From: Mariniphaga sp.
GTDB lineage: Bacteria > Bacteroidota > Bacteroidia > Bacteroidales > Prolixibacteraceae
Direction: 5' to 3'
DNA: 61,402 nucleotides
Assembly: GCA_024636975.1 (NCBI GenBank)
Contig: JAGXGA010000031.1
Coordinates: 1 to 61,402 of the forward strand
The notes below the pieces were generated by a model. It had not been told where the DNA came from. It searched no databases and saw only the letters and a program-made list of their open reading frames with translations. Position 1 is the stretch's first letter. Every line of letters begins with the position of its first letter. The position numbers were made by a program, and so were the translations under genes. Below are positions 22,504-40,538 of this stretch, piece by piece.

Positions 22504-24288
22504 ATGGGTAGCAAAAAACCAAAAAGTAAACGAACTTTTAATCAGAAGTTTCGATATAAGAACCTTGAACTGTATGCAACCCCTGTCATGCTCTCAGGAT
22601 TAATCATTACAGTATTAATAACCTTTGCAGTATATAACCGGGTAAACTATCAGGATAGAAGGAGCCTCAATTTTACTGCACATGAAATTCAGCAGCAATT
22701 AATTGCCCGGCTTGAGGCACATGCACTGATGCTTAGGGCGGGAATAGCATATTTTGCCCTGTCGGATACCGTTACCCGCACCGACTGGAGGGAATACGTC
22801 GCCCATGCACGCATCGACAGGTACCTGCCTGATGTACAGGGGATCGGATATTCGATGATTGTTCCGGGCAGCCAGCTGGAGCAGCACACTAGCAGGGTCA
22901 GAGAGGAAGGGTTTAACGGGTATTCCGTATTACCTGATTATGCCAGGGAATTATATACCTCCATCGTATTTGTTGAGCCGTTTACGGGCAGGAATCGTCA
23001 GGCAATTGGGTACGATATGCTAACCGAACCGGTTAGAAGAGAGGCAATGGAATTCGCACGGGATTATGATGTTGCTACACTTTCCGGAAGAATTCGGCTT
23101 GAAAGGGATACCAATGGTGAGGAACTCTACGGTTCACTGATGTTTGTACCTCATTATGAGACTGAACGGCCTCTCAACACAATCGGACAGCGACATGAGG
23201 CCATAAGGGGGTGGCTGTACAGCCCTTACCGGCTGAATACCTTAATGCGCGATATATTTTCCTTAACAAATGAAGGTTCCAACATCCGCTTGCAGATATA
23301 CGATGAAGTACTGTCGGATTCGACCCTGTTGTATGACAGTTATGGGATTGGTTCAGATTACCTGATGAGGTTTGGCTACGATGAACATCTGCTTCCGGTT
23401 AATTTTAACGAAAACCGGTGGATCCTGCAGTTTTTCAGACCCCGGTCATTTCCTATCCTGACTTTAATTTCACTTATAGTCGGGATAATAATAAGTGTAC
23501 TGCTGTATTTGCTTACGATTGTGTTTTCAAAAATTGCCATACGGGCACAGCAAATCAGGGCTAACAACAAAGAGCTAAAAAATTTGAATGCCACCAAGGA
23601 CAAGTTCTTCTCAATAATTGCACACGATTTAAAAAGTCCATACAATGCTGTCCTGGGGTTCAGCGATATTCTTTTCTCACATGCAGAAAACATGGACCGG
23701 CAGGAAATTAAAAGGCTTTCGGAAATAATCAGGCATTCATCGGAATCAGCAGTTGAGTTGTTATCCAACCTGATGGTATGGTCGCAGTCGCAAACCGGCA
23801 GAATAGAATATATGCCTGAAAAGTTGAATATTGCCGATTTGATAAATGAAGTGGCATCTTTATTTGTTGATTTAGCCCGGCAAAAAGATATTGTTATTGA
23901 ATCAAAGCTACCTATGGAGACTTTTGTTTTTGCCGACCGGGAGATGGTGAATACGGTACTGCGGAATTTAATAACGAATGCCATAAAATTTACTTACCCC
24001 GGTGGTATAGTTACTGTTTCGGCCGTTAAGCAGGGGCAGGAATTGATTGTTTCGGTAGCTGATACGGGGATAGGCATACCAGAGGAGAACATACGGGATT
24101 TGTTCCGAATCGATAAGAACTACACCACTGCAGGCACAAAAAAAGAAAAAGGTACCGGTCTTGGTTTGATACTGTGCAGGGAATTTGTAGAAAGGCATGG
24201 AGGAAAAATTTGGGTGGAAAGTAAAACAACGCCGTCATCCGAAAGTGGTTCAATATTTTCATTTACCCTTCCTGCTGCTTCTGTTTGA
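22504..24288 (+). CDS. CHASE-domain sensor histidine kinase
   Basis: A 594-residue membrane kinase: first helix about residues 22-45 (LSGLIITVLITFAVYN), periplasmic CHASE domain (~60-240; DVQGIGYSMIVPGSQLE, VEPFTGRNRQAIGYDM), second helix about 312-338 (LISLIVGIIISVLLYLLTIV), coiled linker, HisKA (FFSIIAHDLKSPYNAVLGFS, phospho-His), and HATPase (NLITNAIKFTYPGG, DTGIGIPEENI, GTGLGLILCREFV). CHASE domains bind small extracellular ligands. No response regulator is adjacent, so it is an orphan kinase. The C-terminus is complete. Confidence 0.92.
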   Translation: MGSKKPKSKRTFNQKFRYKNLELYATPVMLSGLIITVLITFAVYNRVNYQDRRSLNFTAHEIQQQLIARLEAHALMLRAGIAYFALSDTVTRTDWREYVAHARIDRYLPDVQGIGYSMIVPGSQLEQHTSRVREEGFNGYSVLPDYARELYTSIVFVEPFTGRNRQAIGYDMLTEPVRREAMEFARDYDVATLSGRIRLERDTNGEELYGSLMFVPHYETERPLNTIGQRHEAIRGWLYSPYRLNTLMRDIFSLTNEGSNIRLQIYDEVLSDSTLLYDSYGIGSDYLMRFGYDEHLLPVNFNENRWILQFFRPRSFPILTLISLIVGIIISVLLYLLTIVFSKIAIRAQQIRANNKELKNLNATKDKFFSIIAHDLKSPYNAVLGFSDILFSHAENMDRQEIKRLSEIIRHSSESAVELLSNLMVWSQSQTGRIEYMPEKLNIADLINEVASLFVDLARQKDIVIESKLPMETFVFADREMVNTVLRNLITNAIKFTYPGGIVTVSAVKQGQELIVSVADTGIGIPEENIRDLFRIDKNYTTAGTKKEKGTGLGLILCREFVERHGGKIWVESKTTPSSESGSIFSFTLPAASV

Positions 24289-25107: not shown

Positions 25108-26214
25108 ATGAACCTTTTTATTAATCACAGACCGGGATCATATAGTGATCGCTGGTTAGACTATTGCCAAAGAAATAGCATTCCATTTAAAATTATCAAC
25201 TGCAGAGATACAGACATTATCAATCAGCTTGTAGATTGTAGTGGATTAATGTGGCATTGGGACCTGACGGATTTCAGGGCAGCTTTGTTTGCCCGGCAGC
25301 TTACAATATTGCTTGAAAAAAAGGGAATCAAGGTTTTCCCGGATGTAAATACCTCATGGCATTATGATGATAAAATAGGGCAGAAGTATCTTCTGGAATC
25401 TATTAACGCTCCAATGGTGAAGACATATGTATTTTATACAAAAGAAGATGCTTTGAAATGGGCAGAAACAGTTTCATTTCCAAAAGTTTTTAAGCTGAGA
25501 TGCGGGGCCGGGTCCTCGAATGTAAGGTTAACAAAAAGCAAAAATCATGCAAAGAGACTAATTCGAAGGGCCTTTGGCAAAGGATTCAAACCAATTGATC
25601 CTATTGGTCGGGTGAAAGAACGATTCTGGATGTTGAAGCGTGACCGAAACCTGAAAGCACTCAAGCTGGTTGCAGGTGGTTTTGCCCGTTTGGTGTTGCC
25701 CAATGAGAAGGAAAAATTTGCTCCTAAGGAAAAAGGTTATATCTATTTTCAGGATTTTATTCCTGATAATAATTACGATATACGGTTAAGTGTTGTGGGT
25801 AATCGTTGTTTTGGAGCCATAAGATATTGCAGGCCCAATGACTTCAGAGCTTCGGGGAGCGGATTACTGAGTTTTGATCCTGAATTGATTGGTTCAAGTA
25901 TAGTTAAGCTGGCTTTTGATCTTGCTGGAAAACTGGAATCGCAGTCAATGAATTTTGATTTCATACTTGATGGGGAGGAGCCTAAAATTATTGAAATTAG
26001 TTATTGTCAGCCCGTAAATGGCTGGGATGATTGCCCGGGTTACTGGGATAGCGATTTAAACTGGCATGGTGGCCAGTTTCAGCTGCAGAAATTTATTATT
26101 GAAGATTTTATACAGCAGTTATCTCTTATGTCCAAAGAAGAAAAGAAACCTGTTCAAAAAGAAATCAGGATAATGAATACGACAGATTCAGTTAATCCTG
26201 TTTCAACCGATTAA
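25108..26214 (+). CDS. ATP-grasp ligase-like protein, tandem copy 1
   Basis: A 368-residue protein. N-terminal domain: NLFINHRPGSYSDRWLDYCQ, IINCRDTDIINQL, GLMWHWDLTDFRAALFARQL. ATP-grasp: KVFPDVNTSWHYDDKIGQKY, FPKVFKLRCGAGSSNVRL (nucleotide loop, residues ~124-141), FDIR-type segment NNYDIRLSVVGNRCFGAIRY, and FDFILDGEEPKIIEISYCQP with the acidic Mg ligands (~294-308). This is a RimK/glutathione-synthetase-like carboxylate-amine ligase fold. Similar genes occur near polysaccharide clusters, which suggests attachment of an amino acid to a sugar or peptide; the substrate is unknown. A paralogue follows 103 bases later. Confidence 0.82.
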   Translation: MNLFINHRPGSYSDRWLDYCQRNSIPFKIINCRDTDIINQLVDCSGLMWHWDLTDFRAALFARQLTILLEKKGIKVFPDVNTSWHYDDKIGQKYLLESINAPMVKTYVFYTKEDALKWAETVSFPKVFKLRCGAGSSNVRLTKSKNHAKRLIRRAFGKGFKPIDPIGRVKERFWMLKRDRNLKALKLVAGGFARLVLPNEKEKFAPKEKGYIYFQDFIPDNNYDIRLSVVGNRCFGAIRYCRPNDFRASGSGLLSFDPELIGSSIVKLAFDLAGKLESQSMNFDFILDGEEPKIIEISYCQPVNGWDDCPGYWDSDLNWHGGQFQLQKFIIEDFIQQLSLMSKEEKKPVQKEIRIMNTTDSVNPVSTD

Positions 26215-26317: not shown

Positions 26318-27424
26318 ATGAAACTATGTATTAACCACCAGCCAGGATCTTACAGCGATCGCTGGATTGATTATTGCCAAAGAAATGGCATTCCATTTAA
26401 AATTATCAACTGCAGAGATACCGACATCATTGATCAGCTTGAAGATGGCAGTGGATTAATGTGGCATTGGGACCTGACGGATTTCAGGGCAGCCTTGTTT
26501 GCCCGGCAACTTACAATATTGTTTGAAAAAAAGGGAATCAAGGTTTTTCCTGATGTAAATACCTCATGGCATTATGACGACAAGATAGGGCAGAAGTATC
26601 TTCTGGAAGCTATTAATGCTCCGATGGTGAAGACATATGTATTTTATACAAAAAAAGATGCTTTAAAATGGGCAGAAACAGTTTCATTTCCAAAAGTTTT
26701 TAAGCTGAGATGCGGGGCGGGGTCATCGAATGTAAGGTTGGCAAAAAGTAAAAATCATGCAAAGAAACTAATTCGAAGGGCCTTTGGCAAAGGATACAAA
26801 CCAATTGATCCTATAGGTAGGGTGAAAGAACGATTCTGGATTTTAAAGCGTGACAGAAACCTGAAAGCACTCAAACTGGTTGCAGGTGGTTTTGCCCGTT
26901 TGATGTTGCCTAATGAGAAGGAAAATTTTTCACCTAAAGAAAAAGGATACATTTATTTTCAGGAATTTATAGCTCATAATTCCTATGATACACGTCTTGT
27001 GGTAATTGGCAATCGTTGTTTTGGTCTGCGCAGGTATTGCAGACCTGGAGATTTCCGTGCATCAGGTAGTGGATTGCTGGATTATAATCCTGATTCAATT
27101 GATATCAGAATGGTTGAGATAGCCCATGAAACGGCTGTAAAACTTAGGTCACAATCAATGGCATTTGATTTTATTCTGGATGAATCTGTCCCTAAAATAA
27201 TTGAGATCAGTTATTGTCATCCCATCGATTTTTTAGATAAATGCCCTGGTTACTGGGATCGTGATTTAAACTGGCACGAAGGAAGTTCCCTGGCACAGGA
27301 GTTCATTCTTGATGATTTTGTGCAATCGTTAAACCTGTTTTCCGAAAAGACAAAATTGCCTGAAACAAAAAGCACAATTGAAATGAATATGCCAGATTCT
27401 GAAAAAATTGTATTGATCGATTAA
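26318..27424 (+). CDS. ATP-grasp ligase-like protein, tandem copy 2
   Basis: Same length (368 residues) and plan as its upstream neighbour: KLCINHQPGSYSDRWIDYCQ, HWDLTDFRAALFARQLTI, FPKVFKLRCGAGSSNVRLAK, YDTRLVVIGNRCFGLRRYCR, AFDFILDESVPKIIEISYCH. The N-terminal 250 residues are almost unchanged, while the acceptor-side segment after ~residue 225 and the C-terminal tail differ. That pattern is expected if the two enzymes share a nucleotide core but use different substrates. Even the leader (ATAACTAAA...TCGAATCGATG) is duplicated. Confidence 0.82.
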   Translation: MKLCINHQPGSYSDRWIDYCQRNGIPFKIINCRDTDIIDQLEDGSGLMWHWDLTDFRAALFARQLTILFEKKGIKVFPDVNTSWHYDDKIGQKYLLEAINAPMVKTYVFYTKKDALKWAETVSFPKVFKLRCGAGSSNVRLAKSKNHAKKLIRRAFGKGYKPIDPIGRVKERFWILKRDRNLKALKLVAGGFARLMLPNEKENFSPKEKGYIYFQEFIAHNSYDTRLVVIGNRCFGLRRYCRPGDFRASGSGLLDYNPDSIDIRMVEIAHETAVKLRSQSMAFDFILDESVPKIIEISYCHPIDFLDKCPGYWDRDLNWHEGSSLAQEFILDDFVQSLNLFSEKTKLPETKSTIEMNMPDSEKIVLID

Positions 27425-30122: not shown

Positions 30123-30704
30123 CTAGAGTGATTCCTTATCAAGATTAATTCTGACTTCAGGCTGAACAAGTGCAGGATTAATTTCAAGAGATTTCATCAA
30201 CAGATTGTAATCATCAATTTCGAGACCTTTTTTGGCTGCAAAATCAGCTGGCAACACTACTATTCTCAACACCTGGTCGAGTGCTTCTTCAGGCAGCAGT
30301 TCATCGAAATTGGTGTTTCCATCAAGGAAAATCTGCACATCAGTGAAGGTGTGGTCGTAATTGTACTGCAAAAGGGTACTGTCGGGAAGTACAGCTGTCT
30401 GGGGCAATAAGCGCCATACATCAAGCATACTGCCATCTTCTGCTTCAGCTTGTTCCCATAGAATATAAACCAAAATAACATCGCTTTCAAACACTTCTAT
30501 CGTGTTGGGAAATTCAAAATATAACTTAAAGTCGTTTTCAGGCAGAAAGTCACCCTCAATTTCAAATACGGAAGGAAGTAATAAACCACCATCCTCTCCA
30601 TCAAATCCAGGTTCCCCCGGAGGTCCCGGAGGGCCCTGTGGTCCTTCGCAGGCAGCAAATAGTGCTACGGCAAATAAAAGAATAAGGCGAGTAATTGTTT
30701 TCAT
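30123..30704 (-). CDS. Lipoprotein with collagen-like segment
   Basis: A 193-residue lipoprotein: signal TRLILLFAVALFAAC, then a short collagen-like run GPQGPPGPPGEPGFDGEDGG (residues ~21-40), then a soluble domain (SVFEIEGDFLPENDFKLYFE, VILVYILWEQAEAEDG, FDELLPEEALDQVLRIVVLP). Short Gly-Pro-Pro stretches right after the lipobox are frequent in Bacteroidota lipoproteins and probably act as a rigid spacer or trimerisation element on the cell surface. Its function is unknown. It is divergent from the PqqD operon and separated from it by a promoter-sized gap. Confidence 0.82.
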   Translation of the reverse strand: MKTITRLILLFAVALFAACEGPQGPPGPPGEPGFDGEDGGLLLPSVFEIEGDFLPENDFKLYFEFPNTIEVFESDVILVYILWEQAEAEDGSMLDVWRLLPQTAVLPDSTLLQYNYDHTFTDVQIFLDGNTNFDELLPEEALDQVLRIVVLPADFAAKKGLEIDDYNLLMKSLEINPALVQPEVRINLDKESL

Positions 30705-30950: not shown

Positions 30951-31214
30951 ATGAAGATAATAAAAGAAATAAAAATCAGCGATAACGGTTTTGTTTTTAA
31001 TTCAAATACGGGAGATTCATTTAGTTTGAATTCCACTGGGCTGGAGCTTATACAACTGATTTCTCAGGAGAAGGAAATTGAGGAAATAAAGGAAGTATTT
31101 ACCACACGGTTCGATCTGGATGAACTGACATTTGAGAAGGATTTCTATGAATTTTGTTCTTTACTTAAACTCCATGGAATTATAGCCCGGGAGAGTACTT
31201 CCGAATTTAATTGA
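30951..31214 (+). CDS. PqqD-like peptide-binding protein (RRE fold)
   Basis: An 87-residue stand-alone protein: IIKEIKISDNGFVFNSNTGD, SFSLNSTGLELIQLISQEKE, EEIKEVFTTRFDLDELTFEK, DFYEFCSLLKLHGII. This is the PqqD layout: N-terminal beta-hairpin, then winged-helix segments, with the N-G...LN.TG..I..L motif. PqqD proteins and RiPP recognition elements bind precursor peptides and deliver them to modifying enzymes. It is the first gene of a tight operon with an ATP-grasp enzyme and a decarboxylase, so a role as substrate chaperone is inferred. Confidence 0.8.
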   Translation: MKIIKEIKISDNGFVFNSNTGDSFSLNSTGLELIQLISQEKEIEEIKEVFTTRFDLDELTFEKDFYEFCSLLKLHGIIARESTSEFN

Positions 31215-31222
31215 GGCATGCA

Positions 31223-32269
31223 ATGAAGAAACAAGAAATAACGCTGGCTGTAAGCGGCCTGAACAACACAGATAACCCGGGTCCGGGAGTCCCGTTTATT
31301 CGTGGGTTAAAAGAATCGGAGGAATTCGATGTGCGGGTAATCGGGTTGGTTTATGAGAACCTGGAGCCGGGTATCTATATGGAAGACTTGTGCAGCCGCA
31401 TTTTCCAGGTTCCCTATCCATCATCAGGGTCGGATGATTTGATTGAACGGATTGAGGATATTCACCGTCAGGAAAATATTGATGTATTGGTTCCTAATTT
31501 CGATGCAGAACTTTATTCATTCATGAAAAACGAAGAGCGGTTGCTTAAACAAGGGATTCATACGTTCCTGCCTACATTTCAGCAGTTTCAGGAACGGGAA
31601 AAGCACCGGCTGCCTGAATTTGGTAAGAAATACGGAATAAAAGTGCCTGCCAGCCTTAATCTTGGTAGCCTGGGACAGATAACTGAATTGGAAGATAAGT
31701 TTGATTATCCGGTAATGGTGAAGGGACAGTTTTACGATGCTTACCTGGCCACCAATAAAGAGCAGGTTAAGCAGGCTTTCATGAATATTTCTGCCAAATG
31801 GGGCTTTCCTGTCATTGCGCAGGAGTTTGTTTCAGGTACCGAAGTAAATGTGGTTGCTCTTGGAGATGGTCAGGGCAACACTGTAGCAGCGGTTCCAATG
31901 CGTAAACAATACACCACCGATAAGGGAAAAGCCTGGGGTGGCATTACACTGGCTGATGAAAAAATGATGCATCTTACCCGTTCGTTAATAAAGCAAACCC
32001 ATTGGAGAGGGGGTATGGAGCTTGAACTGATTAAAACACAGACCGGAGAATATTACCTGATTGAAATAAATCCACGAATACCAGCCTGGGTATATCTTGC
32101 TGTAGGTGCTGGTCAGAACATTCCTGAAGCTTTGGTGAAGCTGGCACTCGGCATGGAAGTTAAGCCAATGCATACCTATAAAATCGGAAAAATGTTTGTA
32201 CGATACTCTTACGATATGATTGTAGATCTTGAAAAGTTTGCTGCCATATCAATGAACAAAGAAATATGA
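31223..32269 (+). CDS. ATP-grasp ligase (carbamoyl-phosphate-synthase-like)
   Basis: A 348-residue protein from the ATG at 31223. N-terminal domain TLAVSGLNNTDNPGPGVPFI, RVIGLVYENLEPGIYMEDLC, DVLVPNFDAELYSFM. ATP-grasp fold: YPVMVKGQFYDAYLATN, FPVIAQEFVSGTEVNVVALG, MELELIKTQTGEYYLIEINP with the Glu/Asn Mg site and R-I-P loop (~276-297), ending PEALVKLALGMEV. The ATP-grasp fold makes carboxyl-phosphate intermediates and ligates them to amines. It starts 8 bases after the PqqD stop and overlaps the decarboxylase start by four bases. The substrate is unknown. Confidence 0.85.
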   Translation: MKKQEITLAVSGLNNTDNPGPGVPFIRGLKESEEFDVRVIGLVYENLEPGIYMEDLCSRIFQVPYPSSGSDDLIERIEDIHRQENIDVLVPNFDAELYSFMKNEERLLKQGIHTFLPTFQQFQEREKHRLPEFGKKYGIKVPASLNLGSLGQITELEDKFDYPVMVKGQFYDAYLATNKEQVKQAFMNISAKWGFPVIAQEFVSGTEVNVVALGDGQGNTVAAVPMRKQYTTDKGKAWGGITLADEKMMHLTRSLIKQTHWRGGMELELIKTQTGEYYLIEINPRIPAWVYLAVGAGQNIPEALVKLALGMEVKPMHTYKIGKMFVRYSYDMIVDLEKFAAISMNKEI

Positions 32270-33612
32270 CCATGGAAAAATCAACCTATGAAAAACCGGT
32301 AATTAATAAGATTACTGCAGGAGTTCCCAGCAAATTCGGTCTGCCGGTTAAACCGAAATATATTGCCGCTATTGATGGTATAGCAGTTTCGGCACTGATT
32401 GAAAAATACGGATCTCCCTTATTTGTGTTCTCAGAAAAGACAATAAAGACTACTTATGCTGATGCACGTCGTGCCTTTGAAACCCGTTATCCTAAGGTAC
32501 AGTTTGCCTGGTCGTATAAAACCAATTACCTTGATGCCATATGCTCTGTGTTTCATGACGAGGGAGCCTGGGCAGAAGTGGTTTCCGGTTTTGAATTTGA
32601 AAAGGCACTGGCCCTTGGGGTAAATGGCTCACAGATATTGTTTAACGGACCGGAAAAGTCGGTTGAAGACTTAACCCTGGCCATTAACCACAATGCCTGT
32701 ATACACATCGACCATTTCGATGAGCTTTACCTGCTGATTGAGCTAACCCGAAAACTTGACAAAACGGCGCGGGTGGCTATCAGGGTGAATATGGATACGG
32801 GTATTTATCCCATGTGGGACCGGTTTGGTTTTAACTATGAAAACGGTGAGGCATGGAATGCAATCAACCGGATTATGCTGGCTGAAAAACTCGATCTTAC
32901 GGGATTGCATACCCATATAGGCACATACATTATGGCTACAACTGCCTACGCAGTGGCTGCAGCTAAGCTTGCGAACCTGTATATGGCCATACACCGCAAG
33001 TTTAATTACTGGCTTAAGTACCTTGATCTTGGTGGCGGATTTGCATCCAAAAATACTCTGAAAGGATCCTATATGCCAGGTTCCGAAACCTGCCCCTCCT
33101 TCGATGAATACGCCGAAGCCATTTCCAACGCCCTTATTTCTTCGGAGATACCTCACGAGAACCTGCCTGCCCTTTTTCTGGAAACCGGCAGGGCGTTGAT
33201 TGATGATGCAGGCTATTTGCTTACCACTGTGCTGGCAAATAAACGGCTTTCGACAGGGCGGAGAAGTATGGTTATCGATGCCGGGGTAAACCTCCTGTTC
33301 ACTTCTTTTTGGTACAATCTGGGCGTTTATACAAGTAACCCGGGGTCTGATCAGGTAGAAGAAACTACTATTTACGGCCCGTTGTGCATGAATATTGATG
33401 TTGTACGTGATGCCATTAATTTTCCGCATGTTAAGACCGGCGATCAGCTTGTAATCGAAAGGGTAGGAGCATATAATGTGACTCAATGGATGCAGTTTAT
33501 AACCTATCGCCCAAATGTGGTATTGATTACCAGCAACGGAAATGCACATGTAATCCGAAGAAAAGAGAATCTGGAGACAATTAAAAAACAGGAATCAAAA
33601 ATCGAAAAATGA
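32266..33612 (+). CDS. PLP-dependent group IV (DAP/ornithine-type) decarboxylase
   Basis: A 448-residue alanine-racemase-fold decarboxylase. PLP Lys in FAWSYKTN (K85), HTHIGT (H217), glycine-rich phosphate site LDLGGGFA (256-260), phosphate site ETGRALI (E306), substrate-site GPLCMNIDVV (C374 and D378) and VGAYN (Y403). All catalytic positions are present. The closest named families are diaminopimelate and carboxynorspermidine decarboxylases. As a pathway enzyme after the ATP-grasp ligase it may remove a carboxyl group from a ligated amino acid. The ATG overlaps the ligase stop (ATGA). Confidence 0.88.
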   Translation: MTMEKSTYEKPVINKITAGVPSKFGLPVKPKYIAAIDGIAVSALIEKYGSPLFVFSEKTIKTTYADARRAFETRYPKVQFAWSYKTNYLDAICSVFHDEGAWAEVVSGFEFEKALALGVNGSQILFNGPEKSVEDLTLAINHNACIHIDHFDELYLLIELTRKLDKTARVAIRVNMDTGIYPMWDRFGFNYENGEAWNAINRIMLAEKLDLTGLHTHIGTYIMATTAYAVAAAKLANLYMAIHRKFNYWLKYLDLGGGFASKNTLKGSYMPGSETCPSFDEYAEAISNALISSEIPHENLPALFLETGRALIDDAGYLLTTVLANKRLSTGRRSMVIDAGVNLLFTSFWYNLGVYTSNPGSDQVEETTIYGPLCMNIDVVRDAINFPHVKTGDQLVIERVGAYNVTQWMQFITYRPNVVLITSNGNAHVIRRKENLETIKKQESKIEK

Positions 33613-33622
33613 AAGCCATTTC

Positions 33623-35854
33623 ATGCATATGACGGATGCCCTTCGCGGGAGAGATATTATGCATTCAATCCTGAACAGCTATTCGCAGGTATTTTTTTCT
33701 ACCTCGAAAACACTGGCTGTGTTTCTTATGGGTATCAGCTTTTTTGATTATGGTGCAGGCATTGGTGGCTTGGTGGCTGTATTGGTGGCTAACCTGCTTG
33801 CCTGGCAAATGGGGTATAATTCCTGGTTTTTACGTTCTGGTTTATACGGGTTCAATGCCTTGTTGGTTGGTCTGGGTGTGGGGTTGTTTTACCAACCATC
33901 ACTACAGGTTTATGTACTGATAATAGTTTCGGCACTCACCTGCTTTTTTCTTACAATTGTTTTTCAGGGCGTACTTGGGAAATATGGCCTTCCTTTTCTA
34001 AGTGTGCCTTTTTTGCTCACCATCTGGATTGTCGCCCTCTCTGCAGGCAGTCTTTCAGCACTGAACCTGAGTGAGCGGGGCATTTTTGTGTACAACGAGC
34101 TTTATTCCATCGGAGGTACATTCTTTGTTGATTTGTACGACTTTCTCGAAAAAGGTATTAGCTCTACATTTATACGAATTTATTTCCGTTCGCTGGCTGC
34201 TATTTTTTTCCAGACTCATCTACTTGCCGGCATAATAATCGCACTTGGATTGCTGATTTACTCACGCATTACATTTGTGCTTTCCATGCTGGGCTATGCA
34301 GTGGCTTATTTATTTTATTGGTTGGCAGGCATTGAATTCGATTCACTGGGGTATACTTTTATCGGTTTTAACTACATTCTTACAGCCATAGCCCTGGGAG
34401 GCTATTACCTGGTGCCCGGCAGAGTCAGTTTCGGCTGGATTATTTTATTGCTTCCGGCAGTGGTTCTTATTACCACCAGCACCCAGCAGTTGTTCCAAAT
34501 GTTCCGGATTTCTCCCTACTCGCTGCCGTTTAATGCTATTGTGCTGATGTTTCTGTATGCATTGAAATTGCGGGAGCAGCGCTCCCGGTACCTGATAGAA
34601 ACGCCTGTTCAATTGGGTGAGCCGGAGAAGAACCTTTACCTGTATTCTGGAAACATGAATCGTTTTCCGGCAGCTTATCCGGTTTCAGCAGCATTGCCTT
34701 TTTTCGGAGAGTGGACAGTAAGCCAGGGGCATAATGGTGATTTTACACACAAAGGTGCCTGGCGGCAGGCCTGGGATTTTGTGATCAACGACAGCGGAGG
34801 GCAACAATTTAAAAATGAGGGTGATTTTGCCGACGACTATTACTGCTTTGGCAAAGCTGTTTTGGCACCTGCTGATGGCACAGTTGCCGAAGTAATTAAT
34901 TCCATTACCGATAATGCAATTGGTGATGTAAATACCAAAGATAACTGGGGAAATACGGTGATTCTAAAGCACAACGACTTTCTGTATTCTAAACTGAGCC
35001 ACCTGAAATATCATTCGGTGGAAGTAAAACCAGGCGATTTGGTAAAGAAGGGGCAGCTGATTGCCCGTTGCGGTAATTCTGGCAGGTCACCTTATCCTCA
35101 TCTGCACTTTCAGTTTCAGACTAATCCTTATGTGGGTTCCGTTACTACCGATTATCCTTTTGGCCATTACTTGCTGCATGAAAAAGGGGGATATTCCCTT
35201 CAATCGTTTGATTTCCCAAAGAAAGGCCAGGTGCTGGTTAACCCGTCAAAGAATGAAGTATTAAAAAAGGCACTCCATTTTATTCCTGGCAGGCAGATCC
35301 TTGTTTCAGTAAAAGTGGAATCGGAAAAAGACAAATGGAAAAAGTTGGAGGGTGATTATAAATGGGTGACAGAAACCGATGTTTACAATACCACATTCTT
35401 AAAGTGTTTGCAAACCGGCGCACTGGCTTATTTATACAACCAGGGAGACATGCATTTCTTTACTAATTTTCAGGGGAAAAAGCCTTCGCCCCTGTTTTGG
35501 TTATATTTCACATTGTTTAAGGTACCTTTGGGTTTTCAGGCCAACAGCAGGATTAATGATATTCTGCCCGTTCACCTTCTTTATGGTGGGGTGCTGAAAA
35601 TATTTCAGGATTTTGTGGCTCCGTTATATCTTTTCCTTAAAGCTGAATATCAGCTTGTGATGAAACAAACAGGTGACGTTCTGTCGTCGGATAAGGTTCA
35701 ATTTGAAACCGTGGTAAGTAGGAAGGCAGCAGGAAGAACCATTGATGTTACAAAAAGTCTTGTCTATATATTTCCTGATGGCACATTTGAAATAAATTTG
35801 GAAACTGATAAGGCAAAGATAAGGATGATATGCAAAAACGAATCGGAATCATAG
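33623..35854 (+). CDS. Urea-transporter/M23 peptidase fusion
   Basis: A 743-residue fusion. Residues ~20-320 form a urea-transporter fold with about ten membrane helices; GLYGFNALLVGLGVG (73-87), LPFLSVPF (123-130) and SPYSLPFNAIVL (298-308) match the pore motifs repeated in the two halves of UT proteins. Residues ~365-520 form an M23/LytM-like domain: THKGAWRQAWDF (candidate ligands H376 and D385), AVLAPADGTV, YSKLSHLKYHSVEVKPGDLV, and SPYPHLHFQF (H493, H495). A C-terminal soluble domain continues to 743. A start at 33659 is also possible. The fusion suggests that a small neutral product passes the inner membrane and meets a periplasmic peptidase. Confidence 0.82.
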   Translation: MHMTDALRGRDIMHSILNSYSQVFFSTSKTLAVFLMGISFFDYGAGIGGLVAVLVANLLAWQMGYNSWFLRSGLYGFNALLVGLGVGLFYQPSLQVYVLIIVSALTCFFLTIVFQGVLGKYGLPFLSVPFLLTIWIVALSAGSLSALNLSERGIFVYNELYSIGGTFFVDLYDFLEKGISSTFIRIYFRSLAAIFFQTHLLAGIIIALGLLIYSRITFVLSMLGYAVAYLFYWLAGIEFDSLGYTFIGFNYILTAIALGGYYLVPGRVSFGWIILLLPAVVLITTSTQQLFQMFRISPYSLPFNAIVLMFLYALKLREQRSRYLIETPVQLGEPEKNLYLYSGNMNRFPAAYPVSAALPFFGEWTVSQGHNGDFTHKGAWRQAWDFVINDSGGQQFKNEGDFADDYYCFGKAVLAPADGTVAEVINSITDNAIGDVNTKDNWGNTVILKHNDFLYSKLSHLKYHSVEVKPGDLVKKGQLIARCGNSGRSPYPHLHFQFQTNPYVGSVTTDYPFGHYLLHEKGGYSLQSFDFPKKGQVLVNPSKNEVLKKALHFIPGRQILVSVKVESEKDKWKKLEGDYKWVTETDVYNTTFLKCLQTGALAYLYNQGDMHFFTNFQGKKPSPLFWLYFTLFKVPLGFQANSRINDILPVHLLYGGVLKIFQDFVAPLYLFLKAEYQLVMKQTGDVLSSDKVQFETVVSRKAAGRTIDVTKSLVYIFPDGTFEINLETDKAKIRMICKNESES

Positions 35855-37158
35855 CAGTTTTGATCCTGCTGAGCCTGTTAATCCGGGCACAGCAGAAGCT
35901 GAACTACCCGGAGGTGGATAAAACTTCCTATGAGCTTTACCATCAGGGGAGCTGGAAGGAGTTGATACAGTATGCCGGGGAAGCCCGTAAGCAGGGGATT
36001 GACTTTTTTTATTTGCAGGTACGAACCGGAATAGCTTATTACAACCTGAACCGATACCGGACCGCAAGTGACTGGTTTCTTAAAGCCTGGGAGAGGGATC
36101 AGTCTTTTGAATGGTTGCAGGAATATGTTTATTATAGCCTTCTTTTAGGAGGAAGAGACTATGAAGCTTACAAGGTGGCAGATGATTTTACGCCTGGTAT
36201 GAAGAAAAAAATAAGGTATACTCCAGGTAAGCTTTCAGGCGCAGGACTGGAAGCAGGCTACAGCTTCAATCCCGGTTATGATGATTTAAAAGCTGTTTCT
36301 CATGGCCAGCAGGCAGGAGTGGGAGAAAATTATGGTGAAGCTTTTTACCTGAAGGATTATCATTTTGAATCGCTGGATTTAAGCCACCGGATCGCGCCAG
36401 CCATCAGCATAAATCACAATCTTACCTATGTTGGAATCAATCGGGAGGAGCATATTGACTGGGGGGATAAAAATACTTTTTCTGCTAATACCAAGCAGTT
36501 TCAGTATTTTGTTAACCCTATTCTTGTGCTGGGGAGAAAATGGTATGTAGCACCTTCACTGAGCCTGATCTGGGGAGATTTCTCCTATGTCACCGGGGGC
36601 ATAAGCGGAAACAGGCGATTTTTTGGAAACAGTATGGTAAACTATCGCGATCTGGTATTTTCAACTTCCACATGGACGCATATGGGTATTTTTTCACCCG
36701 GCATTGAATACAACTATGGAAACATTTCCGATACAGGTTTCAGACAGTATTCGTTGTGGCTTACTGCTTACCCTTTTTCTAATCTCAATCTATATTTCAC
36801 ACCCCGTATTTATTTTAAAAGTGATGATGAAAACGGTTTTGGATACAATACCTTTGGCATTACGGGGGGCTTGCAGATGGGACCTGTCCATTTTTACGGG
36901 CAGTACCTGAATGGTGATATGGAGGACTTTATTGAATCGGCAGGATTAGTAGTATCTAACTTTCCCGGCACTTCGAAACAAAAGATTTCGGGTAGCCTCT
37001 ATTACCCGACTGGTAAAAAATACCGGTTCGTTATGCGTTATATTTCGCAGGATGTTACCGAAACATATAGGGTCTATTCAAATGGGATAAGAACCAATTC
37101 ATTGAATTACAAATACGATAAACATACATTTACAATCGGAATATCATGGAACTTATAA
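35830..37158 (+). CDS. Exported protein with TPR-like N-terminus and OM beta-barrel
   Basis: A 442-residue exported protein (signal IGIIAVLILLSLLIRAQQ). Residues ~25-115 contain TPR-like helices (SYELYHQGSWKELIQYAGEA, YNLNRYRTASDWFLKAWERD). Residues ~135-442 are alternating aromatic strands ending TFTIGISWNL, typical of an outer-membrane barrel. It overlaps the preceding gene by 25 bases and the next gene by 13, so all are co-translated. As the last membrane step in the operon it is a candidate export channel or receptor. Confidence 0.78.
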   Translation: MQKRIGIIAVLILLSLLIRAQQKLNYPEVDKTSYELYHQGSWKELIQYAGEARKQGIDFFYLQVRTGIAYYNLNRYRTASDWFLKAWERDQSFEWLQEYVYYSLLLGGRDYEAYKVADDFTPGMKKKIRYTPGKLSGAGLEAGYSFNPGYDDLKAVSHGQQAGVGENYGEAFYLKDYHFESLDLSHRIAPAISINHNLTYVGINREEHIDWGDKNTFSANTKQFQYFVNPILVLGRKWYVAPSLSLIWGDFSYVTGGISGNRRFFGNSMVNYRDLVFSTSTWTHMGIFSPGIEYNYGNISDTGFRQYSLWLTAYPFSNLNLYFTPRIYFKSDDENGFGYNTFGITGGLQMGPVHFYGQYLNGDMEDFIESAGLVVSNFPGTSKQKISGSLYYPTGKKYRFVMRYISQDVTETYRVYSNGIRTNSLNYKYDKHTFTIGISWNL

Positions 37159-37769
37159 GATTTAAATTCCTTTTGCTCCTGGTGTTTGCTTCAGTGATGC
37201 CGGCTATTGCGCAAATAAATCAGGAATCGCTGGAACAGGCATTTGCCAGAAGTTATGAACTTGAGAATATGAATGATTTTGTTGCTTCAGCCAATGAACT
37301 GAAAAAAGTTTACGATCCATCATCGTATGAAATAAATTTAAGGCTGGGTTGGTTGTGCTACAATGCCGGAGAGTTTGATGAATCGGAAGCCTATTATGAG
37401 GAGGCTCAGCAATTGAAGCCTTATTCCGAAGAAGCCAGGTTCGGATTAATACTTCCCATGGCTGCACTTGGAAAATGGGAGGAAGTGATTGCACTTTACA
37501 ATGAAATTCTTGAAATTCATCCCAATAATACCATTGCCATGTTCCGACTGGGAATGATTTATTATGAACGTAAGGATTACCAAAAAGCTATGCCTCATTT
37601 TAAGAAAGTAGTTGATCTTTATCCTTTCGATTACGATGGATTGCTGATGCTGGCCTGGACTTCCTACTTTACAGGTAATTACAACCAGGCAAAAATTCTG
37701 TTTAATAAGGTGAAACTCAACAGACCGGGCGATGCTTCAGCAAATGAAGGTTTACAGCTAATGCGCTAA
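37146..37769 (+). CDS. Exported TPR protein
   Basis: A 207-residue secreted protein (signal RFKFLLLLVFASVMPAIAQI) with about four tetratricopeptide repeats: NLRLGWLCYNAGEFDESEAY, RFGLILPMAALGKWEEVIAL, AMFRLGMIYYERKDYQKAMP, GLLMLAWTSYFTGNYNQAKI. TPR arrays bind proteins. Being coupled to the barrel gene suggests a periplasmic partner of that barrel. It is the end of the operon. Confidence 0.85.
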   Translation: MELIRFKFLLLLVFASVMPAIAQINQESLEQAFARSYELENMNDFVASANELKKVYDPSSYEINLRLGWLCYNAGEFDESEAYYEEAQQLKPYSEEARFGLILPMAALGKWEEVIALYNEILEIHPNNTIAMFRLGMIYYERKDYQKAMPHFKKVVDLYPFDYDGLLMLAWTSYFTGNYNQAKILFNKVKLNRPGDASANEGLQLMR

Positions 37770-37842: not shown

Positions 37843-38139
37843 ATGAAAAAACCAATCCTGAACAGTTTACTTCTGTTGATGGCAGCAGCAGGCTATACAC
37901 AGGTTACACTTGAACATACGTACAACTATTCTGCTGCACTTGTAAAATTTGAAACACCAGGTTATAAGTATTACCTTATGGATGTTGCCGGCGCACAATG
38001 CCGCATATACAACCTTGACCATTCATTGTATAAAACCATTTCCTGCAATGTTCCTGCCGATAGCTACCTGGCCGATGTCAGGCACCTTTCTGAGAAAGTG
38101 TTTGACAATGATGAGGGAATTGAGCTGGTATATACTTAA
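37843..38139 (+). pseudogene. Truncated exported T9SS-substrate-like protein
   Basis: A 98-residue frame with a signal peptide (KKPILNSLLLLMAAAGYTQV) followed by TYNYSAALVKFETPGYKYYL, MDVAGAQCRIYNLDHSLYKT, and VRHLSEKVFDNDEGIELVYT. Larger Bacteroidota proteins with this N-terminal domain continue for a further ~200 residues and end in a T9SS sorting tail. Here a stop follows directly, and the next 150 bases do not carry the expected tail in any frame, so the 3' part is lost. It may still be a short secreted protein. Confidence 0.6.
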
Positions 38140-39886: not shown

Positions 39887-40004
39887 GGCGTAAAAAGGTG
39901 CAAAAATATAGTTTTCACCGTATAAAAAAAGAATAAATGTTAGTTTTCAATAATAGGCTGGTTCTGTTGTTATAAATTTGATCGCCGATCGTCCCTATTA
40001 TCAA

Positions 40005-40538
40005 ATGACTGAAGAAGAGTTTAAAAATATTGTGCTGCCGTTTTCCCGTAAATTGTATCCGTTGCTGAAAGGGATACTTAAGGATGAGGAGGAAACACGG
40101 GATGCCCTGCAGGAGCTGATGCTGAAACTGTGGCGCAACAGAAATGAACTGGATAAATGCCACCATCCCCAGGCTTACATTATTACAATGGCCAAAAATT
40201 ACAGTTATGATGTATTGAAAAAGAAACGGCCGCTGAGGATGAGTGAGAATGGAAGCAGGGAACACCTGAACCTTGAGGCGGATGAACTGAATCCTGATAT
40301 GAGGGAAAAATACGAACATGTAAAGAAAATTATAGAAGAATTGCCCGAAAAGTACAGGGAAGTCATCCGGTTAAGGGACATTGACGGATTTTCATTCGAA
40401 GAGATACATGAATTTACAGGGCTGGAAATAACCAACATACGGGTAGTCCTGTCAAGGGCACGGCAAAGAGTGAAGGAGGAGATAAAAAAAATTTACGATT
40501 ATGAAGACAAAAGACAAACTACTGGAAAGCTATTATAA
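40005..40538 (+). CDS. ECF-type RNA polymerase sigma factor
   Basis: A 178-residue sigma-70 family protein with the ATG at 40005. Region 2: LYPLLKGILKDEEETRDALQ, ELMLKLWRNRNELD, YIITMAKNYSYDVLKKKRP. Region 4: KYREVIRLRDIDGFSFEEIH, FTGLEITNIRVVLSRARQRV. This is a Bacteroidota ECF sigma. It overlaps the following gene by 38 bases, and that gene encodes the membrane protein expected to be its anti-sigma factor. Confidence 0.9.
   Translation: MTEEEFKNIVLPFSRKLYPLLKGILKDEEETRDALQELMLKLWRNRNELDKCHHPQAYIITMAKNYSYDVLKKKRPLRMSENGSREHLNLEADELNPDMREKYEHVKKIIEELPEKYREVIRLRDIDGFSFEEIHEFTGLEITNIRVVLSRARQRVKEEIKKIYDYEDKRQTTGKLL

Follow-up and report, generated by a model that had tools for sequence, protein, structure and literature searches.

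We analyzed a 61,402-nucleotide stretch of DNA from Mariniphaga sp. (Bacteroidota; Prolixibacteraceae; assembly GCA_024636975.1, contig JAGXGA010000031.1), referred to here as the window, and found that six adjacent genes at positions 30951–37769 are one conserved unit and not a chance grouping. Together they encode a PqqD-like protein, an ATP-grasp ligase, a pyridoxal phosphate (PLP) decarboxylase, a urea transporter (UT) domain fused to an M23 domain, a predicted outer-membrane barrel protein, and a tetratricopeptide repeat (TPR) protein. A function in making and moving a small molecule is likely, and a ribosomally synthesized and post-translationally modified peptide (RiPP) is less likely. 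We tentatively propose, with confidence that falls just short of even, that the six genes form a conserved biosynthesis-and-export cassette for an N-acyl amine. As far as the literature was searched, the gene set is undescribed. The original prediction for this locus had pointed to no described pathway of such composition, and we likewise found no published account; subscription papers were mostly outside the searched literature, so an earlier description is possible.

The genes of the cassette are as follows (aa, amino acids).

30951–31214, forward strand: gene 1, PqqD-like small protein (87 aa; PF05402, E=1e-7)
31223–32269, forward strand: gene 2, ATP-grasp ligase (348 aa from ATG 31223; 352 aa from TTG 31211)
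32266–33612, forward strand: gene 3, alanine-racemase-fold PLP decarboxylase (448 aa; Orn_Arg_deC N and C)
33623–35854, forward strand: gene 4, UT and M23 fusion (743 aa; PF03253, 1.9e-56; PF01551, 2.5e-16)
35830–37158, forward strand: gene 5, outer-membrane protein with an N-terminal TPR region and a 14-strand barrel (442 aa; signal peptide by eye)
37146–37769, forward strand: gene 6, TPR protein (207 aa; TPR families; signal peptide by eye)

The six open reading frames (ORFs) and their domains, as given by ORF listing and by Pfam and NCBIfam searches, are those first described. The claimed overlaps of 25 bases between genes 4 and 5 and of 13 bases between genes 5 and 6 are present, but the ATGA overlap claimed at 32266 may be only apparent: the Met3 column of the decarboxylase alignment holds Met in 10 of 12 rows (window included), so the gene may start at 32272. 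For the ATP-grasp ligase, most aligned relatives use the equivalent of ATG 31223, or a position near it, and not that of TTG 31211, which makes ATG 31223 the most likely start. Promoter and terminator scans yielded no more than shuffled sequence did.

Conservation of the gene set

Three samples underpin the comparison. The first comprises the window's own genome and those of relatives, 40 in all, which were searched with the decarboxylase, with regions taken around 18 carriers. The second comes from a scan of named genomes: out of at least 586 related places it keeps the 80 best, and it leans towards close relatives. The third is a set of 395 genomes drawn evenly across the phylum, in which ATP-grasp matches were accepted at a threshold of E 1e-60. 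The samples overlap, since some of the regions L021–L038 and L149–L182 come from genomes that are also in L040–L119.

Half of the first sample (20 of 40 genomes, the window's own included) carries an orthologue of the decarboxylase, defined by a best piece of at least 57% identity. The six genes stand in order in 14 of the 18 relative regions, and in all 12 of those long enough to hold them. Among the best 80 of the named-genome loci, 53 are long enough for six genes and 48 of these have all six in order. The exceptions are a decarboxylase alone (L071), a piece of the UT-M23 gene only (L099), and two loci with no recognized TPR gene (L091 and L094), in the former of which gene 5 reaches the contig end. 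L106 was scored as an exception only through an overlap filter that dropped its PqqD frame (113 bits), and several of its genes are split. The gene overlaps are conserved in the same sample, occurring between the UT-M23 and outer-membrane genes in 48 of 61 pairs and between the outer-membrane and TPR genes in 54 of 59. Carriers there include Prolixibacteraceae, Draconibacterium, Cyclobacterium, Rhodonellum, Mariniradius, Aquiflexum, and Balneolaceae, and three records are labelled Marinimicrobia or Neomarinimicrobiota. Many environmental Bacteroidota carry the cassette, which is not confined to a single class of that phylum, and an order kept over such a range makes it likely that its function is worth keeping.

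Across the 395-genome sample, the ATP-grasp ligase is found in 34 genomes and the UT-M23 fusion, here judged by open-frame length, in exactly the same 34 (Fisher p 7e-50, with shared ancestry uncorrected, as in all our co-occurrence tests). A UT domain occurs in 45 genomes. The frame is long (535–769 aa) in 33 of them, and G044 adds one more genome, with its fusion divided between two frames. The remaining 11 genomes have no ATP-grasp match, and their UT frames are 280–332 aa (10 genomes) or a weak broken match (one genome). Since fusion and ligase are never apart in this sample, the fusion can serve as a genome marker for the system.

The PqqD, ATP-grasp, decarboxylase, and UT-M23 genes stand in order in all 34 regions from the 33 phylum-sample genomes besides the window's own. 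One genome (G163) carries two regions, the second with a split fusion, and in L166 a large ORF separates the PqqD and ATP-grasp genes. Thirty of these regions are whole: 12 have all six genes, 16 have five with gene 5 unrecognized, and two (L150 and L165) lack a recognized TPR gene as well. Pairwise evolutionary distances run in parallel, with rho of 0.88–0.91 among ATP-grasp, decarboxylase, and UT-M23 (0.91 for decarboxylase against UT-M23) and 0.57–0.86 for other pairs. The original prediction of one functional unit is borne out by the conserved order together with the exact co-occurrence.

A proposed ligase and decarboxylase for an amide conjugate

The closest solved match of the decarboxylase is 7kh2, the N-citrylornithine decarboxylase FigC (E=1.6e-78), which scores 268 bits against 130 bits for BtrK. 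Residue counts were redone on distinct sequences, leaving 111 decarboxylases of 113 rows and 108 UT domains of 113 rows. Lys85, His217, Arg309, Cys374, Met375, and Tyr403 are present in all 111 distinct decarboxylases. A literature search on N-citrylornithine decarboxylase led to PMC7857480 (FigC) and PMC8503589. In the former, a docking model of FigC places R290, Y331, T327, M355, and Y383 near the amide and chain of the substrate, and H357 and R387 on the citrate. FigC Lys63 and Cys354 and the equivalents of R290, M355, and Y383 are kept in 111 of 111 cassette sequences, T327 in 110, and Y331 in 108. The two citrate-contacting residues, His357 and Arg387, are replaced by Ile377 and Gln407 in all 111, and the position of FigC T330 is Trp in 110. 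Retention of the amide-side residues with loss of both citrate anchors suggests that the probable substrate of the decarboxylase is an amino acid joined through an amide to an acyl group other than citrate. Homologous decarboxylases that act on conjugates include SbnH, AcsE, MccE, and BtrK, according to the same paper (PMC7857480).

The enzyme falls below the curated cut-offs of both NCBIfam NF041039 (FslC/FigC; 235.7 bits against 500) and TIGR01048 (LysA, meso-diaminopimelate decarboxylase; 224.2 against 297.9), and synthesis of polyamines or lysine was rejected on this ground. A siderophore pathway was also rejected: the citrate anchors are missing, and clusters resembling TonB-dependent receptors or resistance-nodulation-division (RND) pumps, recognized by eye, adjoin only 8 of 98 loci each.

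The ATP-grasp protein scores above the cut-offs of both PF15632 and PF02655, and its nearest solved chain by profile is 2pn1, a carbamoyl phosphate synthetase (CPS)-like ATP-grasp. An EINPR motif, K171, and an N-terminal G-x-N-x-x-D-x-P-x-P-G motif are invariant in 26 of 26 aligned rows, which are 38 to 78% identical to the window's protein. These invariant motifs and the conserved decarboxylase residues make the ligase-decarboxylase pair put forward in the original prediction plausible. Elsewhere in the window, two adjacent ORFs of 368 aa on the forward strand (25108–26214 and 26318–27424) both weakly resemble RimK-like ATP-grasp proteins.

The PqqD-like protein belongs to PF05402 (32.6 bits against a cut-off of 23.4), in keeping with the RiPP-recognition-type fold assigned to the first product. 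G13, F14, F16, G21, and N27 are invariant in an alignment of 25 rows. A carrier-protein role was considered and rejected, as the same alignment has no invariant Ser, Cys, or Lys for attachment and a ragged C-terminus.

The membrane and outer-membrane components

The predicted structure of the UT-M23 fusion has a mean predicted local distance difference test (pLDDT) score of 87.2 and retrieves the UT-fold chain 3me1 (2e-14) and LytM/M23 chains (from ~1e-6) with Foldseek. The UT fold spans the first ~315 residues and exceeds the Pfam UT cut-off (191.8 bits against 25), yet falls under that of the urea-transporter equivalog (115.7 against 274.6). At pore positions that we take from dvUT numbering, Thr130 is changed to Ser in 105 of 108 distinct cassette UT domains and Glu187 to Ala in 88 of 108. 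Eight stand-alone UT proteins, from 8 of 10 genomes, have Thr in all eight and Glu in six, with Gln in the other two. Of the 34 cassette genomes, a single one has a strong urease match (E < 1e-50), compared with 6 of 10 genomes with a stand-alone UT (p 2e-4, shared ancestry uncorrected). Five further cassette genomes have weak urease matches just over the cut-off (23–25 bits), which are likely other amidohydrolases.

In the M23 domain, H376, D385, H460, H493, and H495 are invariant in 38 of 38 rows, with zinc-ligand and catalytic roles assigned by eye. Residues ~520–743 of the fusion (window positions 35180–35851) form a beta-rich C-terminal domain with no Pfam family; UT and M23 chains account for nearly all of the 50 Foldseek matches listed.

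Searches of Pfam and NCBIfam at E 0.01 gave no match for gene 5. In its AlphaFold2 model (mean pLDDT 91.9) a TPR region leads into a barrel of 14 strands, and Foldseek returns weak, generic matches to FadL, EstA, and BcsC. The TPR gene comes next in order after gene 5 in 55 of the best 80 named-genome loci, and after the UT-M23 gene in 17 of the 34 phylum-sample regions. The UT-M23 and gene 5 models agree with the membrane and outer-membrane parts first described.

A type-IX-secreted protein and other neighbors

A neighbor that recurs beside the cassette, and that the original prediction had missed, is left in the window only as a remnant. Two further features flank the six genes:

37843–38139, forward strand: remnant of a 260-aa type-IX-secreted protein (98 aa; only the N-terminal third; hidden Markov model (HMM) E=3.4e-43)
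30123–30704, reverse strand: divergent collagen-like (GPPGPP) lipoprotein (no Pfam match)

The remnant matches residues 2–98 of 265, and no continuation is listed in the genome scan. A protein of ~260 aa with a type IX secretion system (T9SS) tail, or a piece of one, is found within the cassette or next to it in 16 of the best 80 named-genome loci and is intact in other genera; in one relative (G001) the gene is broken too. Among the 40 relatives, seven have a match to the N-terminal region of this family; each of the seven carries the cassette, and the 20 genomes without the cassette have no match. Five of the seven matches lie in the cassette or within ~2 kb of it, and the other two are on a different contig, the one with the cassette having stopped early. 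A second family of secreted proteins stands beside the cassette in 11 of 34 phylum-sample regions. Thirteen of 33 cassette genomes have it, counting the query's own, against 0 of 13 others, and in G163 it is remote from the cassette. The two families give an hhalign probability of 12 when compared; a secreted protein at L173:9489–10307 weakly matches both and may link them.

The lipoprotein recurs in 9 of 98 loci, in close relatives only, where at least two pairs represent one genome taken twice. It is probably not a core part, and its earlier exclusion was reasonable. An AraC-type regulator was rejected as a fixed part, being directly upstream in only 14 of 62 loci. PADLOC models gave no match to the six proteins at E 0.001, and an anti-phage defence system was rejected for this reason. 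The window also holds a CHASE-domain histidine kinase (22504–24288, forward strand) and a sigma-70-family factor resembling the extracytoplasmic function (ECF) type (39978–40538, forward strand).

Proposed function and alternatives

For the proposed N-acyl amine cassette the chemistry is read from conserved residues. The ATP-grasp enzyme would join a carboxylic acid other than citrate to an amino-acid side chain by an amide bond, with the small PqqD-like protein acting as a helper or a docking subunit for it. The decarboxylase would then strip the free alpha-carboxylate from the conjugate to leave a primary amine, as do FigC, SbnH, BtrK, and MccE. The product would exit through the UT-fold channel, be handled at the zinc site of the fused M23 domain, and cross the outer membrane with the help of the TPR-barrel protein and the TPR protein. 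In some lineages the type-IX-secreted protein may work with the cassette. The proposal is weakest on which way the product is transported, on what the M23 domain does and which side it faces, and on what the PqqD-like protein contributes.

Several observations weigh against this proposal. The pocket comparison depends on a docking model and on residue matching. UT channels pass small, flat, neutral molecules, and an acyl amine need not be one. Solved UT proteins have both termini in the cytosol, and the last UT helix is followed by K315 (97%) and R317 (100%; 38 rows), so the M23 domain would lie on the cytosolic side. Other loops are also positively charged, and the pattern is only a hint that M23 may be cytosolic, which does not suit simple export processing; it casts doubt on the periplasmic placement originally given to M23. 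Gene 5 goes unrecognized by its HMM in 16 of the 30 whole phylum-sample regions. An ORF of 269–309 aa, weakly related to gene 5, adjoins the end of the TPR gene in 14 of 34 phylum-sample regions; it aligns with the gene 5 barrel over 210 columns (E 2e-4, hhalign probability 44), and in these regions the barrel may have split off and moved next to the TPR gene. Arrangement also varies: L038 has a broken decarboxylase, and its UT-M23 gene is reversed in strand and placed upstream of PqqD, from which other ORFs separate it; L030 has two ORFs between the decarboxylase and UT-M23. Finally, of 40 cassette genomes 37 have a T9SS sortase match above the cut-off, and in three the match scores below it, which implies that the cassette can exist without type IX secretion.

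A more elaborate form of the proposal, which we consider unlikely though worth stating, is a Bacteroidota envelope system in which a non-citrate amide conjugate is made and decarboxylated by cytosolic enzymes, passed by the repurposed urea-channel domain and M23, and moved to the surface by the TPR-barrel, there acting with or being joined to a dedicated type-IX-secreted protein. If this were true, UT-M23 would represent a transporter class of a new kind, confined to this previously unrecognized envelope system.

Each of the domain families in the cassette is common on its own, as a chance grouping of unrelated housekeeping genes would have it. The order fixed in 48 of 53 whole loci and the exact co-occurrence in 395 genomes refute such a grouping, to which we assign almost no probability; the order check across Bacteroidota set out in the original prediction thus comes down on the side of a kept order. 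A pathway that takes in and consumes urea or a similar compound, with import by the UT domain and metabolism by the ligase and decarboxylase, would suit the UT fold and the CPS-like relatives of the ATP-grasp enzyme. It is made quite improbable by the changed pore, the single strong urease match among the cassette genomes, and an outer-membrane TPR-barrel that would be unusual for so small a nutrient.

A RiPP pathway would have the PqqD-like protein recognize a ribosomal peptide, the ATP-grasp enzyme and decarboxylase tailor it, and M23 cut the leader. Membership in PF05402 speaks for it, as does MccE, a homologous decarboxylase that tailors a peptide-nucleotide (PMC7857480). Against it, in the gaps between genes and in flanks of 700 bases upstream of PqqD and 600 bases downstream, no cluster of small ORFs occurs in more than 11 of 114 loci, and the larger clusters are by eye antisense to a neighboring gene or a piece of the secreted protein. 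Three forward-strand clusters of three loci each (L104/L113/L115, L160/L179/L180, and L045–L047) could still be read in its favor. No precursor gene common to the loci was found beside the cassette, the search not extending to distant or lineage-special precursors. We rate the pathway as rather unlikely, and the modified peptide originally suggested as a product finds no small ORF common to the loci to encode it. Somewhat better placed, though still improbable, is modification of the envelope, in which an amine conjugate would be put on peptidoglycan, lipid A, or a surface protein (possibly via the type IX sortase) while M23 opens or trims the wall. The intact zinc site, the weak likeness of the TPR-barrel to exporters such as BcsC, and the secreted protein next to some cassettes would fit; set against these are the lack of a glycosyltransferase, flippase, or transferase among the six genes, the absence of the secreted protein from most loci and its decay in the window, and the uncertain side of M23.

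Comparison with known systems

The cassette offers a ligase-decarboxylase pair with a predicted substrate (amide-linked and not citrate), a urea-channel fold that appears to serve another purpose, and a TPR-barrel of the outer membrane that belongs to no Pfam family. Its UT domain shares the fold of the dvUT bacterial urea transporters over the first ~315 residues, and differs from them in its fusion to M23, its changed pore, its rare company with urease, and its score under the equivalog cut-off. In the microcin C pathway MccB is a partner, whereas the cassette has no MccB-like gene among its six and no common peptide precursor was found beside it. The two are alike in the use of a homologous decarboxylase, MccE, to tailor a conjugate, as described in PMC7857480.

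The butirosin and rhizoferrin systems share the same succession of ligation and decarboxylation. In the butirosin enzymes BtrJ, BtrK, and BtrI, as would be the case here, a ligase is followed by a homologous decarboxylase (BtrK, 2j66/7ru7) that acts on a bound amino acid. BtrJ is an ATP-grasp ligase; unlike that system, the cassette has no acyl-carrier protein domain among its six genes. In the FigA/FigC (FslA/FslC) rhizoferrin system a ligase conjugates an amino acid through an amide, and the conjugate is the substrate of a decarboxylase with the alanine-racemase fold. There the ligase is a nonribosomal peptide synthetase-independent siderophore (NIS) synthetase and not an ATP-grasp enzyme, and the cassette decarboxylase lacks both citrate anchors and scores under the family cut-off. 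Where the rhizoferrin pathway has a major facilitator superfamily (MFS) transporter, the cassette has the UT-M23 fusion and the TPR-barrel.

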